Positions 18,435 through 29,006 of a DNA stretch of 64,000 bases are shown here, in pieces. A program made the position numbers and the translations under genes. Source of the stretch: Erwinia sp. JUb26. GTDB taxonomy: Bacteria > Pseudomonadota > Gammaproteobacteria > Enterobacterales > Enterobacteriaceae. The notes below the pieces were generated by a model, which was given only the letters and a program-made list of their open reading frames with translations, was not told the origin of the DNA and did no database searches. Numbering within the stretch: the first letter of the stretch is position 1; each line of letters starts with the position of its first letter. The stretch is taken from contig NZ_RJVB01000001.1 of the NCBI RefSeq assembly GCF_003751505.1, positions 498,027 through 562,026 of the forward strand. The letters run 5' to 3'.

Positions 18435-19754
18435 GTGGACAGTAACGCGGCCATTGATATTCATGCATTAATTAACCGTAATGCATTAAGCCGTTACCAG
18501 AAGTGCATCATTGCGCTTTGTTTTGCCGTTGTAGCCATGGACGGGATGGATATCGCGCTGATGGGCTTTATCGCTCCGGCGCTGAAAACGGCGTGGGGCG
18601 TCAGCAATCATCAGCTGGGTGCGGTGATCAGCGCTGCACTTATCGGCCTGGCGCTGGGCGCGATGTTTGCCGGACCGCTGGCCGACCGGTTCGGGCGGCG
18701 GGTGATTATTATCAGCAGCGTATTTTTCTTTGGACTGTGGACGCTGGCTACCGCCTTCTCGCAGAACCTTGACCAGCTGATGCTGTTCCGCTTTCTCACC
18801 GGCTTAGGGCTGGGGGCGGCGATGCCCAATGTCGGCACGCTGGTGGCGGAATATTCCCCTGAGCGAAAACGCGCTTTTTTGATCACCGTGGTGTTCTGCG
18901 GCTTCACCTTCGGTGCCGCCAGCGGCGGTTTTGCCGCTTCCTGGCTGATCCCCCACTATGGCTGGCATTCGGTGCTGGTCCTGGGCGGCGTTCTGCCGCT
19001 AATGATTGTGCCATTACTGCTGCGCTGGCTGCCGGAATCGGTGCGCTTTATGATGACGCGCAACGCACCCGCCTGGAAAATTCGGCAGATTGTTGAAAAA
19101 ATGCATCCTGGCATGACCACCGACCAGTGTCGCTTTGCCCTCAGTGAAATCACCACCACAGGCGGCGCGGTGCGGCTGGTGCTGTCCCGGCACTACCTGT
19201 TTGGCAGCGTGATGCTGTGGGGCAGCTACTTTATGGGGCTGTTCCTGGTGTATCTGATCGGCAGTTGGCTGCCGTCGCTGGTAAAAGACATCGGCATGAC
19301 GGTCACCCAGGCGGCACTGGTTACCGCCATGTATCAGGCGGGTGGCACGATCGGGTCGCTGTTCGCGGGCTGGGTGATGGACCGCTTTAATGCCAACCTG
19401 GCGCTGGCGGCGATCTACTTTACCGGCGCGATTGCGACGGTGTGCATTGGCTACGCACCGGCTGACGTGATGGTGCTCAGCGCCGTCGCCTTCTGCAGCG
19501 GTTTTTGTCTTAACGGGGCCAATACCGGGATGAATGCGCTCTCCGCCAGTTATTATCCCACGCGCGCTCGCGCCACCGGTTCCAGCTGGATGCACGGCGT
19601 CGGTCGGGTCGGCGCGATCCTCAGCGCCTTTGCCGGGGCGCAGATGCTGTCGATGGGCTGGAATATCACCGATGTCTTTTCCTTCCTGGCGATCCCGGCG
19701 GTGTTAACCACACTGATGCTTGTGGCCAAATCCCGCTACGGCTATCGGGCGTAG
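18435..19754 (+). CDS. MFS transporter, aromatic acid:H+ symporter (AAHS) family
   Basis: Inner-membrane proton symporter of about 439 residues with 12 predicted membrane segments. The AAHS signatures are present: DGMDIALMGFIAPAL in segment 1, the A motif GPLADRFGRR in loop 2-3 and a PESVRFM element at the end of segment 6. PcaK and related benzoate or hydroxybenzoate carriers are the studied members. I chose GTG at 18435, which follows AGGGAG; a TTG 48 bases earlier is also open. With the divergent PcaQ-like regulator it forms a two-gene uptake module. The exact aromatic substrate cannot be read from sequence. Confidence 0.83.
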   Translation: MDSNAAIDIHALINRNALSRYQKCIIALCFAVVAMDGMDIALMGFIAPALKTAWGVSNHQLGAVISAALIGLALGAMFAGPLADRFGRRVIIISSVFFFGLWTLATAFSQNLDQLMLFRFLTGLGLGAAMPNVGTLVAEYSPERKRAFLITVVFCGFTFGAASGGFAASWLIPHYGWHSVLVLGGVLPLMIVPLLLRWLPESVRFMMTRNAPAWKIRQIVEKMHPGMTTDQCRFALSEITTTGGAVRLVLSRHYLFGSVMLWGSYFMGLFLVYLIGSWLPSLVKDIGMTVTQAALVTAMYQAGGTIGSLFAGWVMDRFNANLALAAIYFTGAIATVCIGYAPADVMVLSAVAFCSGFCLNGANTGMNALSASYYPTRARATGSSWMHGVGRVGAILSAFAGAQMLSMGWNITDVFSFLAIPAVLTTLMLVAKSRYGYRA

Positions 19755-19792
19755 CCGGGCAGAACAGCGGCTTTGCGGGTAAAATCCGTTCT

Positions 19793-19822
19793 GAGCTCGG
19801 AGGCGATACCGCCTCCGAGCTC
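19793..19822. terminator. 13-bp perfect hairpin after the AAHS transporter
   Basis: GAGCTCGGAGGCG and its exact complement surround a four-base loop. It lies 39 bp after the transporter stop and 27 bp before the end of the convergent small gene. There is no T run, but the stem is strong enough to act in both directions. Confidence 0.6.
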
Positions 19823-19848
19823 TACTTATGCAGCAGCAGGATCCATCC

Positions 19849-20043
19849 TTATCTTAACTTTTCGCATTTGTTCAAATGGCATTCGTAGTCGCGATAGGTC
19901 GGCTTTGCTGTGACCTTGCCGGTGGCAATCTCAATAGCGACGCTTTCGCTGTCCGCTTCCACCGTTTCAGAGGTATTCGCCGTGCTCCTGCTTCCCCCTG
20001 CTGAATATTTAATCATGCTGAATGAAACTCGATATCGGGCCAT
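19849..20043 (-). CDS. Small hypothetical protein with C-terminal cysteines
   Basis: A 64-residue protein I do not recognise. The N terminus is MARYRVSFSMIKYSAGGSRS; the C terminus has two cysteines in YECHLNKCEKLR. An AAGGA ribosome site sits 6 nt before the ATG. It has no signal peptide or membrane segment. It is monocistronic, flanked by a strong hairpin on one side and a 418-bp gap on the other. Confidence 0.5.
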   Translation of the reverse strand: MARYRVSFSMIKYSAGGSRSTANTSETVEADSESVAIEIATGKVTAKPTYRDYECHLNKCEKLR

Positions 20044-20461
20044 GTTTTATCCTTAATTTATGGTTGTGCTGAATGCACCACTATTGCACCCGGGAAGAGG
20101 GGGGTTCAATTGCTCGAACGTCCAATAATAATCCCTGCTTAACGGCAAGCCCTGGCATCTGTTTCCGCGGTGGGCGTCTGGCTCTGACCGCCGTCGTAGC
20201 GATCTCTGACTTTCAAAATGAAAAAAAATGCGCCGCATTATTATGGTGCCTGCGCACCGTTCTGGTTCATTCATTCGTTAACTCATTATAAATACGTGAC
20301 TTTATTAAATCGCCCTCTGATTGAAATTAGTTAATTTTCCCCGTTGTGGTGCAGTCGTTAATTTGCCGAGTTCCCTGAGAAAAAAGAGATTGAACGAGTG
20401 TTCAACGCTGTGTAAGTTAATAATCAAGCGCAGGGTTTTATTAATTCAACAGGCTTATCAG
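20044..20461. promoter_or_regulatory. Intergenic region upstream of the TetR operon
   Basis: A 418-bp gap, AT-rich towards the right. It holds the TetR-type inverted repeat at 20390-20405. An open frame runs into the TetR gene from 20321 but has only a TTG start without a ribosome site. I see no other gene. Confidence 0.5.
20390..20405. promoter_or_regulatory. Candidate operator for the TetR regulator
   Basis: TTGAACGAGTGTTCAA consists of perfect 6-bp arms around four bases, 56 bp upstream of the TetR start codon. TTGAAC half-sites are typical for this regulator group. Autoregulation of the whole downstream operon is the natural reading. Confidence 0.5.
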
Positions 20462-21058
20462 ATGACGGTGATACAAAGACAATCGGAACTTATTTCCGCA
20501 GCATTAACCTGCCTGAAAAAGGAAGGATACAAAGGATTGTCGGTGAGAAAAATAGCCGACGAGGCGAAGGTTTCCGTTGGGCTGATCAATCACCATTTTG
20601 GCAGTCTGGAAAAGTTAATATCTGCATCCTATGAATCGATGGCGGGTGATATTCTGCTTTCGTTAAAGGAAACCTGCGAAGGGGAAATAATCGATCCCGC
20701 TAAGAGAATTGACGTGTTTATCCGGGAAAGTTTCAATTCGTCTATTCTTGACCCGGACCTGCTAAATGCGTGGATCGTTTTCTGGGGCATGACCCGATAC
20801 AGCCCGGAAATCGATAAATCACACTCACAAACCTACGCCAGTTATCTTGAGTTTCTTTCTCAGTTACTGAGTGATTTATGGCGGCAGGAAAACAGTACCG
20901 AATGTAATATCCGACTGGCCAGTATTTCATTTTCATCAATGCTCGATGGTTTATGGGTGGAAAGTTGCCTTAACTCCCACGTATTTAAACCAGACGATGC
21001 CATATCGATCTGTCAGGCCTGGATCAAAGGATTCCGTGCCGGAATGTTTGCATCATAA
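20462..21058 (+). CDS. TetR-family regulator, BetI-like
   Basis: A 198-residue regulator. The helix-turn-helix spans about residues 25-48 (LSVRKIADEAKVSVGLINHHFG). The C-terminal ligand domain resembles BetI, with LLNAWIVFWGM and SMLDGLWVE motifs. I chose ATG at 20462, which gives a normal TetR length; the ribosome site is weak. The aminotransferase gene starts 21 bp later, so the regulator is probably first in its own operon. The ligand is presumably a substrate or product of the operon and is unknown. Confidence 0.82.
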   Translation: MTVIQRQSELISAALTCLKKEGYKGLSVRKIADEAKVSVGLINHHFGSLEKLISASYESMAGDILLSLKETCEGEIIDPAKRIDVFIRESFNSSILDPDLLNAWIVFWGMTRYSPEIDKSHSQTYASYLEFLSQLLSDLWRQENSTECNIRLASISFSSMLDGLWVESCLNSHVFKPDDAISICQAWIKGFRAGMFAS

Positions 21059-21079
21059 TTAAAATTTTCAGGGGTTACT

Positions 21080-22189
21080 ATGATTAAGGAAATAAGAAAG
21101 GAAGTATACAACTGCGTGCCTTATGCAGCGGGTAAAAGCATGGAAGATGTGATGGAAGAATATGGCTTATCCAGCGCGGTTAAATTGGGATCTAATGAAA
21201 ATCCCTATGCGCCGTTTCACCTCTCTACGAAGAGAATGATGGATGAGGTGCTGAAGATTAACAGCTATCCGGAAAAAAACTTTATCCGCCTGAAATCTAT
21301 TCTGGCAGAAAGAAATAATCTGACTGCGGAAAATATTGGTTTAGGTCATGGAGCCGGGGGCGTACTCGATACGTTGGCAAAAACCTTTATCAGCCAGGGT
21401 GATGAGGTGATTGTTCCGCAAGAAACTTACGGCCTGTATAAAGAAATATCAAAAGGCATGGGCGCCGAGGTAAGACAAATCCCACTGGACGGCGAATACC
21501 GTCTGGATTTAACGGCGATGGCTGCGGCGGTGAGTGAAAAGACCAAACTGATTTGGGTGTGCAATCCCAATAACCCGACCGGCACCACCGTTGACAGCAG
21601 TAAATTCTACGACTTTATCGATGCGTTGCCGAATCACGTCTGGGTGGTATTAGATGAAGCCTATATTGAATTTGCCAGAAACGATCGCCTTATCGACGTG
21701 ACCCGACTGATTAATGCTGGTAAGAAAATCATTAAGGTCGGCACGCTGTCGAAATATTTTGGCCTGGCGGGCGGGCGAATTGGCTACTGTATCGCCCAGC
21801 CTGAAGTGATTAGCGCCTATGACACGATTAGTGAGCCGTTTAACGCCAACCGCATCGGTCTGGCCGGCGCGGTCAGCGTACTGACCGAAGACCTGGCGAC
21901 CTGCGTCGGCTTCGGCAACCGACTTATTGCTTCCCGCGAAAGCCTGATCGCGGAACTGCGCGAGGCGGGCTGCGCGTGCAGCGAGTCCGACACCAACTTT
22001 GTCTTTTTCTCAACGCCGTTTGCGGCGAGTGAGATTGCCAATCGACTGCTGCAGGAAGGGGTGATTGTGCGCCCGTGCGGTGGCTGGGGCTACCATCACC
22101 ATCTGCGGGTGACGATCGGTACGGAAGAACAAAATACAGTCTTTATCGAAAAATTTAAAAGCGTGTTGCAAACATTACAGGGTGCTTAA
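21080..22189 (+). CDS. PLP-dependent aminotransferase, HisC-like
   Basis: Fold-type I aminotransferase of 369 residues, similar to histidinol-phosphate aminotransferases. The PLP lysine is K225 in GTLSKYFGLAGGRIGY. CNPNNPTGT (about 161-169), LDEAYIEF (about 191-198) and a GSNENPY substrate loop near 37-43 are present. A stray HisC copy in a TetR-MFS-dehydrogenase operon points to catabolism or a special metabolite rather than histidine synthesis. The likely reaction is removal of the amino group from an amino acid to give a 2-oxo acid. Base composition is visibly more AT-rich than in the flanking genes. Confidence 0.85.
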   Translation: MIKEIRKEVYNCVPYAAGKSMEDVMEEYGLSSAVKLGSNENPYAPFHLSTKRMMDEVLKINSYPEKNFIRLKSILAERNNLTAENIGLGHGAGGVLDTLAKTFISQGDEVIVPQETYGLYKEISKGMGAEVRQIPLDGEYRLDLTAMAAAVSEKTKLIWVCNPNNPTGTTVDSSKFYDFIDALPNHVWVVLDEAYIEFARNDRLIDVTRLINAGKKIIKVGTLSKYFGLAGGRIGYCIAQPEVISAYDTISEPFNANRIGLAGAVSVLTEDLATCVGFGNRLIASRESLIAELREAGCACSESDTNFVFFSTPFAASEIANRLLQEGVIVRPCGGWGYHHHLRVTIGTEEQNTVFIEKFKSVLQTLQGA

Positions 22190-22191
22190 TT

Positions 22192-23451
22192 ATGCCAAAG
22201 TATAAGAAGTATATAACCCTTCTTCTGTTGGGTTTTTCCGGTGGTGCGATATTTGTCTTTCCCTATCTTAAATATATTTTTTACGATGACGTATTAACCT
22301 CACTGGGCATCGGCAATGCCGATTCCGGTTTACTGTTAACGGCGTATTCTCTCGGCTGTGTGGCCCTGTATATTCCGGGGGGGATTCTGGCGGATAAACT
22401 GTCACCGCGCATTTCCGTGGTCGCCTCGCTGTTTGCTGCTACTGCACTAACGCTGATGTTTGCTTTCTTCTTTAACTTCGCCTCGGCGCTGGTGGTCTGG
22501 TTCCTGATGGCTTTTGCCTCCGGCTTTGTCTTCTGGTCGGCCGTACTGAAGGCGGTGAGGATCATCAGTGAAGAGCAGGACCAGGGATTAATGTATGGTA
22601 TCTATTACAGCGCCAATGGTGCCGCTACGGCGATAATTAATTACCTGTGCCTGAAAGTATTCGGCTATTCCGGCGGTGGCAGTCACGGATTGTTTATGGC
22701 CGTGCTGCTGATGGCCTGTTTTACCGGCGTGTCGGCCATCGCGCTGATGTTCTTCCTGAAAGGTTTTGAAAAGTCTCAAACGAAAGAAGACGATAAATTC
22801 AAATTCGCCGATCTTTCACTGGTGGTGAAAAATCCCTCTGTGTGGATGGTCTCCATCATCTTCTTCTGTATCTATGCGGTCTATACCTGTAGTTCCTATT
22901 ACACGCCGTATCTGACCTGGTTGGGTATGTCATCGGATAATTCCGCCGAGCTCAGTATACTGCGCATTAATATGGCAATGATGATTGCCTCGCCGATTGG
23001 CGGCTACCTGGCGGATAAGGTTTTTAAATCGACGCTAAAATGGATTATGTATGGTTCGATACTGCTGGCTGTGTCTATTGTCGCCACGGTGATGGTCGGC
23101 GGTGATAATCTACAGTTGACCAGTATTCTGTCGATTATTCCGGGCTGGCTGGTGATGTCGATGTACGGCATTATGTTCTCCTCGTTTAAAGAGATTAACG
23201 TACCGGTCAAGGTATCGGGTACGGCGATCGGCTTTGCTTCGATTATCAGCTACTCACCGGACCTGTTTATGAATACCGTTTATGGTTCGGTTCTGGATAA
23301 ATATCAGGGTGCGGAAACGATGACGGCATATAAAATCATCTTCCTGAGCCTTGCCTGCCTAGCGGTATTGTCGGTGATTTTATCTCTGTGGGTCTTGTCG
23401 AGAAATGCGGTAAAGAAAAATCGACTTGCCGAGTATCTGGTCAATAATTAA
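22192..23451 (+). CDS. MFS transporter
   Basis: A 419-residue major facilitator with 12 hydrophobic segments and a short polar central loop at about residues 188-205 (KSQTKEDDKFKF). The A-type motif is GGILADKLSPR after segment 2, and a second one, GGYLADKVFK, appears in the C-terminal half. It starts 2 bp after the aminotransferase stop, so the two are tightly coupled. It probably moves the amino acid, oxo acid or hydroxy acid handled by the neighbouring enzymes; direction is unknown. Confidence 0.82.
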   Translation: MPKYKKYITLLLLGFSGGAIFVFPYLKYIFYDDVLTSLGIGNADSGLLLTAYSLGCVALYIPGGILADKLSPRISVVASLFAATALTLMFAFFFNFASALVVWFLMAFASGFVFWSAVLKAVRIISEEQDQGLMYGIYYSANGAATAIINYLCLKVFGYSGGGSHGLFMAVLLMACFTGVSAIALMFFLKGFEKSQTKEDDKFKFADLSLVVKNPSVWMVSIIFFCIYAVYTCSSYYTPYLTWLGMSSDNSAELSILRINMAMMIASPIGGYLADKVFKSTLKWIMYGSILLAVSIVATVMVGGDNLQLTSILSIIPGWLVMSMYGIMFSSFKEINVPVKVSGTAIGFASIISYSPDLFMNTVYGSVLDKYQGAETMTAYKIIFLSLACLAVLSVILSLWVLSRNAVKKNRLAEYLVNN

Positions 23452-23477
23452 CAGCAGTCATTTAAAGAGTTCCCCTT

Positions 23478-24464
23478 ATGAAAATAGTCATTTGCGATCA
23501 TAAAGAATCGCTCGACAGAGACGTCGCGGCTGAAATTAATCTGTTTAAACAACAGTTGGGCCAGGAGACCGAAGTTATTATCCATGAATACAACGGAGAT
23601 AATCAGGCACTGAACGCAGTTGTTGACGATGCCGATGGCATTATGACCTCCTACGTGGCGTTTACGGACGAAATGATTTCCGCCTGCCGCAGGCTGAAAG
23701 GCATATCGATCAACGCCACCGGCTATAACTTTATCGACCTGCACGCCGCCAGCCGAAATGACGTTCAGGTGGCGGTGATTGCGGAATACTGCACGCAGGA
23801 GGTCAGCGAGCATGCGATGACGCTGGGCCTGGCCGTGGCAAGGAATATCAAGGCCTACGGCCGCAGCATTGAACAGAAGCGGAAATACGCCTTTAACTGC
23901 GTCAGCGGCATGTTTCGCCTGGAGGGAAGCACCTTCGGCATTATGGGGCTGGGGAAAATAGGCCAGGCCGTCGCCAGAAAAGCGCAGGGCTTCGGCATGA
24001 AGGTGGTGGCGTTTTCCCCGTCCTGTCCGGCCTCGGTAGCTGAGGGCTTGGGTATTACGCTGGTGGATAAAGAGCGACTACTGAAAGAGAGTCACTTTAT
24101 TTGCTTAACCATGTCGCTTAACGCCGGAAATATGAATATCCTGGACCGTGAAGCGTTTGCCAAAATGGAACAGCGGCCGATTGTTATCAATGTGTCGCGC
24201 GGTCAGATGATCGATGAGCAGGCGCTGGTTGAGGCCCTTGATAACAATCTGATATTCGGTGCCGGGCTTGACGTACTGGTTGAAGAGAGCGATGCATATA
24301 TTGCCAACTCGCCGCTGGTCGGGCGCGATAACGTCATCATCACGCCGCACGCGGCGTTTTACTCTGACTTCTCGATGCAGGAAAACCAGCGGATTGGCGT
24401 ATCGAACCTGGTGAATATCCTTAACGGCAACCTTAATGACGTGACGCGCATCGTTTCGTCCTGA
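23478..24464 (+). CDS. D-isomer-specific 2-hydroxyacid dehydrogenase
   Basis: NAD(P)-dependent dehydrogenase of 328 residues in the phosphoglycerate/D-lactate dehydrogenase superfamily. The Rossmann motif GIMGLGKIGQAVA lies at about 154-166. The catalytic triad is visible as R241 (NVSRGQ), E270 (DVLVEES) and H291 (ITPHAAF). It should interconvert a 2-oxo acid and a D-2-hydroxy acid, which fits directly behind an aminotransferase. It is the last gene of the TetR operon; a strong terminator follows. The physiological substrate is not deducible. Confidence 0.86.
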   Translation: MKIVICDHKESLDRDVAAEINLFKQQLGQETEVIIHEYNGDNQALNAVVDDADGIMTSYVAFTDEMISACRRLKGISINATGYNFIDLHAASRNDVQVAVIAEYCTQEVSEHAMTLGLAVARNIKAYGRSIEQKRKYAFNCVSGMFRLEGSTFGIMGLGKIGQAVARKAQGFGMKVVAFSPSCPASVAEGLGITLVDKERLLKESHFICLTMSLNAGNMNILDREAFAKMEQRPIVINVSRGQMIDEQALVEALDNNLIFGAGLDVLVEESDAYIANSPLVGRDNVIITPHAAFYSDFSMQENQRIGVSNLVNILNGNLNDVTRIVSS

Positions 24465-24473
24465 AGAGCCTTA

Positions 24474-24500
24474 AACCACCTCCTGTCGGAGGTGGTTTTT
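24474..24500. terminator. Terminator between the 2-hydroxyacid dehydrogenase and doxX genes
   Basis: AACCACCTCC and GGAGGTGGTT form a perfect 10-bp stem around TGTC, followed by a T run. It stands between convergent genes and can serve both. Confidence 0.9.
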
Positions 24501-28119: not shown

Positions 28120-28150
28120 CCGTTATCCTTCGGGATGGCGGTTTTTTTTT
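28120..28150 (+). terminator. Terminator after the amino-acid binding protein gene
   Basis: CCGTTATCC and GGATGGCGG pair with two wobbles around TTCG and run into nine T. It lies about 60 bp after the stop codon. Confidence 0.9.
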
Positions 28151-28209
28151 GCGTTTTTAAGAATGAGAAATTGCTGCGAAGTGCGGGGTTGGATTTAGTC
28201 TCTGCTGCT
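28151..28209 (+). repeat. 59-bp direct repeat, copy 1
   Basis: Matches 28417-28475 at about 49 of 59 positions by eye. It begins immediately after the terminator T run. Its last 10 bases enter the left arm of structured element C. Confidence 0.8.
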
Positions 28210-28387
28210 GCTCCGGGCGGTCCTCGCGCCGCGTTGCGGTTCCCTCGGTTACGTCATTGTGCCGGTCGGACCGGCCATGATTGAACGTCCCTGTTCAAGC
28301 CCGGCCTGACGCCAACATCCCTTGTTGTCATCTCGTGGCGCAATAGCTCCACCTCAGCGCTGCGGATGCCCTTGCGCAGCAGCAGAG
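28200..28387 (-). repeat. Structured repeat element C
   Basis: One of three related elements, in inverted orientation. A 12-bp perfect terminal stem pairs 28200-28211 with 28376-28387. Inside, read on the minus strand, hairpin 1 (28313-28327) is CAACA-AGGGA-TGTTG and hairpin 2 (28281-28298) is TTGAAC-AGGGAC-GTTCAA. The conserved segments ATCCGCAGCGCTGA, GGTCCGACCGGC and GCGAGGACCG are shared with element A, and in part with B. No protein-coding signal is seen. Confidence 0.85.
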
Positions 28388-28416
28388 GCTGTCCCTTTCA
28401 AAATTTCATCGTTTCT

Positions 28417-28475
28417 GCGTTTTAAAGAATAAGAAATTGCTGTGAAGTGTGGGGCTGAGTTCAGCCTCTACTGCT
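28417..28475 (+). repeat. 59-bp direct repeat, copy 2
   Basis: Second copy of the sequence at 28151. It is followed by a CTAC/GTAG stem and a stretch that could be the remnant of another element, but no complete core follows until element A. Confidence 0.8.
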
Positions 28476-28525
28476 TCAGGGTAGTCCTGGCTTTTGATTT
28501 TTCGGGCAATACAAAAGTCAGAGAG

Positions 28526-28723
28526 CGGGCTGGCAGTGCCCCCGTTCAGGCAATCCACAGCGCTGAACGCAGAGAGGAAGCCAGGATTCGGCCGCATGGA
28601 CGCGGCCGAAAGTCACAGCCGGGCCAGGACGGTCCGTCTGTGACGGTCCGACCGGCTGACGAGCGAAGTGAGGGTACCGCGAAGCGGCGCGAGGACCGCC
28701 CGAACGGGGGCACTGCCAGCCCG
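28526..28723 (+). repeat. Structured repeat element A
   Basis: A 198-bp element closed by a 22-bp perfect inverted repeat (28526-28547 with 28702-28723). Hairpin 1 is TTCGGCCGC-ATGGAC-GCGGCCGAA (28587-28610). Hairpin 2 (28612-28644) has outer arms GTCACAG/CTGTGAC and inner arms GGGCC/GGTCC around AGGAC. GGTCC after hairpin 2 can pair with GGACC near the end, enclosing a CCGC-GAA-GCGG mini-hairpin. Core sequence and order match element B, 294 bp downstream in the same orientation. Confidence 0.9.
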
Positions 28724-28829
28724 TGCCCACTGCTAGCCTGTAAACAACACAGCAAAATATTCTTTTGCGGAGTTCCGGCAACCATTCGCCGTGAAAGCAG
28801 ACGCTTATGGAGAAAAGCAGGCGGGCAGG

Positions 28830-29006
28830 TGTCTTCCTGAAGGGACATCCGCAGCGCTGAACGTAGAGAGGAAGCCCGGATTTGCCCACAAGGACGTGGG
28901 CAAAAGACGCAGCCGCGCAGGACGCGCGTCTGCGGCGGTCCGTGAGGCTGACGAACGAAGAGAAGGCACAGCGCAGCTGCGCGAGGACCGGCCCGGCAGG
29001 AAGATA
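28830..29006 (+). repeat. Structured repeat element B
   Basis: Same architecture as element A with different stem sequences. The terminal stem pairs 28830-28839 with 28997-29006 and extends outward imperfectly. Hairpin 1 is TTTGCCCAC-AAGGAC-GTGGGCAAA (28881-28904). Hairpin 2 (28908-28934) has outer CGCAG/CTGCG and inner CGCGC/GCGCG around AGGAC. The mini-hairpin is CAGC-GCA-GCTG. Shared words include ATCCGCAGCGCTGAACG, GAGAGGAAGCC and GCGCGAGGACCG. Long open frames crossing this block look accidental. Confidence 0.88.

Follow-up and report, generated by a model that had tools for sequence, protein, structure and literature searches.

Do four neighbouring genes of the plant-associated enteric bacterium Erwinia sp. 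JUb26 form a single metabolic operon, where did it come from, and which reactions might it serve? The genes lie on contig NZ_RJVB01000001.1, in a stretch of 64,000 nucleotides (positions 498,027 to 562,026) that is called the window below and in whose coordinates all features are given. They encode a regulator of the TetR family, an aminotransferase, a transporter of the major facilitator superfamily (MFS) and a D-2-hydroxyacid dehydrogenase. We estimate a probability of about one half that they constitute a horizontally acquired, locally autoregulated metabolic operon for amino acid, 2-oxo acid and D-2-hydroxy acid chemistry, a reading drawn from sequence comparison. An initial annotation made from the letters of the window had described four tightly spaced genes, and this description held: four uninterrupted open reading frames (ORFs) stand in tandem on the plus strand (20462-24464), separated by 21, 2 and 26 bp. 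Families were assigned by searches of the four proteins against Pfam and NCBIfam profiles, and the features of the locus are as follows.

19749..24474, no strand: segment missing in the same-genus genome G013, which has 29 bp there (limits are alignment ends)
20390..20405, no strand: inverted repeat TTGAAC-GAGT-GTTCAA, candidate TetR operator; motif conserved upstream of the operon in 3/3 carriers
20462..21058, + strand: TetR-family regulator, 198 amino acids (aa), TetR_N and TetR_C_6 domains
21080..22189, + strand: HisC-like aminotransferase of subfamily I-beta, 369 aa, with Lys225 as the predicted pyridoxal phosphate (PLP) lysine
22192..23451, + strand: MFS transporter, 419 aa, MFS_1 domain
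23478..24464, + strand: D-2-hydroxyacid dehydrogenase, 328 aa, 2-Hacid_dh and 2-Hacid_dh_C domains; Arg241, Glu270 and His291; Ser180 at the cofactor position
24473..24498, + strand: intrinsic terminator, stem-loop with T-rich tail, probably native to the site and not part of the cassette

The frame of the regulator gene is open back to a TTG at 20321; in both enteric orthologues described below, the start codon is an ATG aligned with that at 20462.

Recurrence of the gene block

The co-occurrence of the four genes in other genomes, set beforehand as a check on the operon, was found in Pantoea coffeiphila strain 1480 (G007) and in Klebsiella sp. BIGb0407 (G1096). Both carry all four genes in the same order as the window, with identities for TetR protein, aminotransferase, transporter and dehydrogenase of 94, 91, 98 and 94% in the former and 72, 74, 81 and 76% in the latter. 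The P. coffeiphila copy is located at the same site, with the same MFS and LysR genes upstream, and the Klebsiella copy at another one, downstream of an operon that reads as a beta-glucoside operon (names by reading). In Lentilactobacillus kisonensis DSM 19906, aminotransferase, transporter and dehydrogenase genes follow one another in the same order, with gaps of 13 and -4 bp; their products are 43, 42 and 47% identical to those of the window. The operon genes are under purifying selection, the ratios of nonsynonymous to synonymous change (dN/dS) relative to P. coffeiphila being 0.036, 0.083, 0.017 and 0.047 for the four genes; relative to Klebsiella, synonymous sites had reached saturation in three of the genes and come close to it in the remaining one. 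Because the gene order recurs across carriers and nonsynonymous change is strongly reduced, the three metabolic genes very probably make up a functional unit, of which the TetR gene is a part, as far as seen, in the enteric carriers only. That unrelated genes became neighbours by chance would suit the rarity of the block among the sampled genomes, but the same order is found at three separate sites that span two phyla, which strongly disfavours such an origin and makes it extremely improbable.

All three loci came up in a scan of named genomes in which a 105-residue piece of the aminotransferase served as query and the best 80 of 381 relatives were kept; carriers ranked below these 80, or without the query's two peptide patterns, would be missed. 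Transporter and dehydrogenase genes lay downstream of the aminotransferase gene in P. coffeiphila, Klebsiella sp. BIGb0407 and L. kisonensis (3/80 loci). None of the 77 remaining loci had a transporter match, and two of them (L119 and L132) had a dehydrogenase match (E <= 1e-4) that was not adjacent. At three loci of other Lentilactobacillus species (L117, L119 and L151), an aminotransferase of this type stands beside a gene that reads as peptidyl-prolyl isomerase-like, with no transporter gene at the locus and no dehydrogenase gene adjoining.

Wider searches used genome sets that were samples, several of which lacked the two enteric carriers, presumably because these had not been drawn; where a genome gave many candidates in the order, class, family and phylum searches, scoring was limited to the few best. 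At E <= 1e-45 the transporter was matched in two of the 37 genomes sampled from the own GTDB genus (the own genome and P. coffeiphila), in 9/392 family genomes, in 1/369 class genomes and in one of four genomes of the Klebsiella carrier's genus. Identity above 33% was seen, in the family sample, only in the own genome and in Klebsiella sp. BIGb0407, the sole close match beyond the own genome (81%). The aminotransferase (E <= 1e-60) was matched in 110 of 394 order genomes, with more than 39% identity only in the own genome, and the dehydrogenase in the own genome only, among 249 phylum genomes (1e-55) and 227 family genomes (1e-60). An earlier contig scan with a transporter alignment missed two carriers in its own collection, and its empty result is no evidence of absence.

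Several further candidates were rejected. Candidate carriers in E. coli gave zero megablast matches. As for plasmids, the aminotransferase led to 142 records, all below 60% identity (34-35% in the 30 records listed), the transporter to four (27-32%) and the dehydrogenase to four (32-35%); the L. kisonensis proteins found none in one search and two records at 29-33% in the other. No viral carrier was found, and one unannotated record of a phage collection has a transporter relative at 32%. Plasmids of Klebsiella, Enterobacter and E. coli, such as NZ_AP026397.1 (H8), bear a hisC-annotated aminotransferase gene whose product is 34% identical to that of the window. The Klebsiella operon is followed, after a terminator-like hairpin and at a distance of about 200 bp, by a gene encoding a Creatinase_N domain (L051:9203-10591; 24.7 bits against a gathering score of 22), for which a search run without a positive control gave no match in the own genome; on account of this distance and this missing match it was rejected as an operon partner.

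Insertion site, terminator and candidate operator

The initial annotation had suggested acquisition by transfer from an AT-rich composition. The G+C content of the operon is 0.486, below every one of 207 overlapping 4-kb windows (step 250) lying outside it (minimum 0.519, mean 0.581, standard deviation 0.024). In G013, the MFS gene found upstream of the operon and the DoxX gene found downstream are 29 bp apart (alignment ends), compared with 4726 bp in the window (19749-24474). They are likewise adjacent in G022, with 38 bp between matched ends, and in G001 the upstream MFS gene adjoins the downstream LysR gene and DoxX is missing. This LysR gene occurs in 24 of the 37 same-genus genomes (24 loci), which comprise the two carriers, G013, G022, G001 and 19 others that have neither of MFS gene and DoxX in the stretch covered. 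The empty site in a genome of the same genus, together with the low G+C content, thus supports horizontal transfer, as had been suggested. Loss from relatives is the alternative to gain, and gain is favoured because of the composition and the two unrelated sites of insertion. The Klebsiella copy, with 36-43% G+C compared with 45-47% for the two genes upstream, looks foreign there as well. No tRNA gene was present in the window. A second G+C-rich hairpin, GAGCTCGGAGGC...GCCTCCGAGCTC, immediately follows the upstream MFS gene (19793-19822), close to the left boundary of the insertion.

A terminator at the end of the operon had also been claimed, and a strong hairpin does stand at 24473-24498, with 11 pairs, a 4-nt loop and a T-rich tail. 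The 51-nt terminator stretch folded at -23.7 kcal/mol (z -6.0), with none of 200 shuffles equally good, and among nine terminator-like sites in 4.6 kb (4.1 expected) its stem is the longest by far. However, the empty site of G013 already has a CCACCTCC/GGAGGTGG hairpin and a T run with the same core sequence, so that the terminator probably belongs to the site itself and is older than the insertion.

The inverted repeat TTGAACGAGTGTTCAA, with 6-bp arms and a 4-bp centre, is the only match in the window to TTGAACGANTGTTCAA at no more than two mismatches; at least one match was obtained in 8 of 100 shuffles, and within the window alone the evidence is suggestive. The exact motif occurs once per genome in all three enteric carriers, every time ahead of this operon. 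For this reason the repeat is more than chance, and the TTGAAC/GTTCAA operator of the initial annotation stands as a conserved candidate. The distance from repeat to TetR start codon is 56 bp in the window and P. coffeiphila and 64 bp in Klebsiella, where one base of the centre differs and the remaining upstream sequence is largely different. Sites with one mismatch were absent from the three enteric genomes. Since the exact repeat stands once in each of them and always before the operon, its distribution fits a TetR protein that is probably a local autoregulator and would bind the repeat. The TTGAAC arm could be a -35 box. Like BetI (TIGR03384, PRK00767), the regulator has a BetI-type C-terminal domain and an operator-like inverted repeat, but it falls below both BetI equivalog cut-offs (94 compared with 118 bits, and 93 compared with 201.3) and its neighbours are not betaine genes; the label BetI-like given to it at first is therefore apt for the domain and not for the protein as a whole.

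Predicted chemistry of the enzymes and the transporter

The aminotransferase contains the Aminotran_1_2 domain and scored 304.2 bits with TIGR01141 (hisC), which passes the cut-off of 276.55. Its gene lies outside any his cluster. The own genome has such a cluster at locus L066, in which hisD, hisC (401.7 bits), hisB, hisF and hisIE scored above their cut-offs and hisG, hisH and hisA were named by reading, the place of hisG giving no match at a strict 1e-60. Because of this second hisC, the operon enzyme would not be needed for histidine. In a tree of 44 rows (38 loci from the relatives search and the order search, L065, two paralogues of the own genome and three operon copies, with L001-L003 dropped as duplicates) the operon copies formed their own fully supported clade, the deeper placement of which is unsure as some branches are very long. 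Like subfamily I-beta aminotransferases, the operon enzyme keeps both substrate arginines (Arg331 and Arg343), and it differs from them in forming this separate clade. Its best solved relative is the M. tuberculosis aminotransferase ArAT Rv3772 (PDB 4r2n, PMC4703992), with 184 bits, or 253.7 when a 7-member profile was used. Mapped by eye onto the positions in that paper, the pocket residues are Tyr15, Tyr63, Gly93, Tyr117, Leu119, Phe254, Arg331 and Arg343, none of which varies among the three enteric copies and four relatives from Lentilactobacillus. The hydrophobic pocket given there for mArAT consists of Val86, Phe110, Leu112 and Phe246, in place of which the operon enzyme has, by the same mapping, Gly93, Tyr117, Leu119 and Phe254. 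Gly93 contrasts with Val in mArAT and Asn in mHspAT and in 37 order-level rows; Tyr117 is HspAT-like and Phe254 ArAT-like.

Like the 2-hydroxyacid dehydrogenases (2HADH) described in a survey (PMC6303947), the operon dehydrogenase has the GXXGXGXXG motif (154-162) and an intact catalytic triad of Arg241, Glu270 and His291, all invariant in the four operon dehydrogenases. It reaches no NCBIfam equivalog cut-off, and all four lack the Asp that ends the second Rossmann strand in the NAD-specific SERA, LDHD and CTBP types and that the survey ties to NADH preference. All four have Ser180, which aligns with Ser in glyoxylate reductase 5aov and with Asp in PGDH 9jcn. As Ser180 replaces the Asp that marks NAD use, the cofactor loop hints at an enzyme that prefers NADP(H), and it favours work in reduction. 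The opposite direction, in which a D-2-hydroxy acid from the environment would be imported, oxidised and aminated to an L-amino acid, is compatible with the reversibility of both enzyme families. The missing Asp speaks against it, however, and so does the statement, in the same survey, that oxidative members are almost all NAD+-using; we consider assimilation somewhat unlikely.

The best NCBIfam matches of transporter, dehydrogenase and aminotransferase are PgtP, PGDH and HisC, which would suit phosphorylated substrates and the conversion of a phospho-hydroxy acid into a phospho-amino acid. But the scores lie below the cut-offs (52.3 compared with 407.75 bits for PgtP, TIGR00881, and 173.8 compared with 454 for PGDH), and an Asp conserved in SerA is absent, so we hold phosphorylated substrates to be very unlikely.

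The transporter was assigned to PF07690 with 93.7 bits against a gathering score of 33.4. No relative was found among solved structures at E 0.001, the best being the fucose symporter 3o7p at 0.0018. In an alignment of 11 rows, basic residues occupy position 120 in every row and positions 27, 123 and 258 in 10 rows each, which is weak evidence for an anionic substrate. In C. difficile and in genome G962, relatives at about 30% identity adjoin PLP enzymes that resemble methionine gamma-lyase and score below equivalog cut-offs. In Peptoclostridium the neighbours are 2-oxoisovalerate ferredoxin oxidoreductase genes, on a Salmonella plasmid they are genes for RidA and a sugar-phosphate isomerase, and the rest were read by eye. 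Metabolic enzymes beside a transporter, such as the gamma-lyase-like ones, are what uptake systems would have, a point for assimilation. Detoxification is a further possibility: a toxic amino-acid analogue or 2-oxo acid would induce the operon and then be transaminated, reduced and exported. Detoxification systems often have a TetR regulator and an MFS gene, and the patchy, transferred distribution of the operon would suit them; the company of the transporter relatives, though, is unlike that of drug efflux, which leaves detoxification as a distinctly unlikely account.

The proposed pathway and its relation to known systems

In the acquired, autoregulated operon that we prefer, the TetR protein would sit on the inverted repeat before its own gene until a small ligand releases it. 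The aminotransferase would interconvert an L-amino acid, possibly bulky or aromatic, and a 2-oxo acid, as its family suggests, and the dehydrogenase would interconvert the same 2-oxo acid and a D-2-hydroxy acid, more likely by NADPH-dependent reduction. The MFS protein may carry the starting compound, the product or, by exchange, both across the membrane.

Several observations weigh against this proposal. The L. kisonensis locus has no TetR match anywhere within 14 kb, and a simple promoter scan listed nothing promoter-like ahead of the first gene. Further sites with two mismatches to the repeat numbered 23 in the three genomes, compared with 14 for a reversed control pattern, so that a wider regulon or weak secondary sites are possible; the one of the 23 that was inspected, a conserved site at L108, falls within an ORF whose product reads like a permease. 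The aminotransferase pocket is a mix of HspAT-like and ArAT-like residues, and a bulky or aromatic amino acid as substrate is for this reason a guess. Finally, the varied enzyme company of the transporter relatives gives export no support. Exchange of precursor and product would reconcile the cofactor loop, which favours reduction, with transporter company that does not favour export.

A more far-reaching version may be considered, which is speculative and on balance improbable. The block would be an inducible portable cassette, in which a HisC-derived aminotransferase, a dedicated and perhaps exchanging transporter and an NADPH dehydrogenase turn one amino acid, perhaps aromatic or non-proteinogenic, into a D-2-hydroxy acid, for example an aryl-lactate used as antifungal or signal. 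Its metabolic genes would have moved between lactic acid bacteria and enterics, the latter adding the TetR switch. D-phenyllactate formation in lactic acid bacteria (for example PMC9618312) resembles the last step proposed here, and the three-gene block does occur in one such bacterium; the difference is that D-lactate dehydrogenases are reported to make D-phenyllactate there, compared with a putative dedicated operon with its own transporter here.

Elsewhere in the window, the intergenic region 28146-28993 contains direct repeats that have diverged (64-72 bp each, spaced by about 270-290 bp) and inverted repeats that are long; Rfam TwoAYGGAY is matched within it at 28582-28650 with 56.4 bits, above the gathering score of 43.

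All four proteins come from known superfamilies and their arrangement is new; searches of open-licence PubMed Central literature turned up no paper with this gene combination in its title or in the opening of its abstract. The aminotransferase passes the HisC cut-off, yet by its context it is not a histidine enzyme, and an automatic pipeline would give it the wrong label. With three genes preserved together in two phyla and a switch of its own in enterics, the block would offer a small and testable metabolite system.

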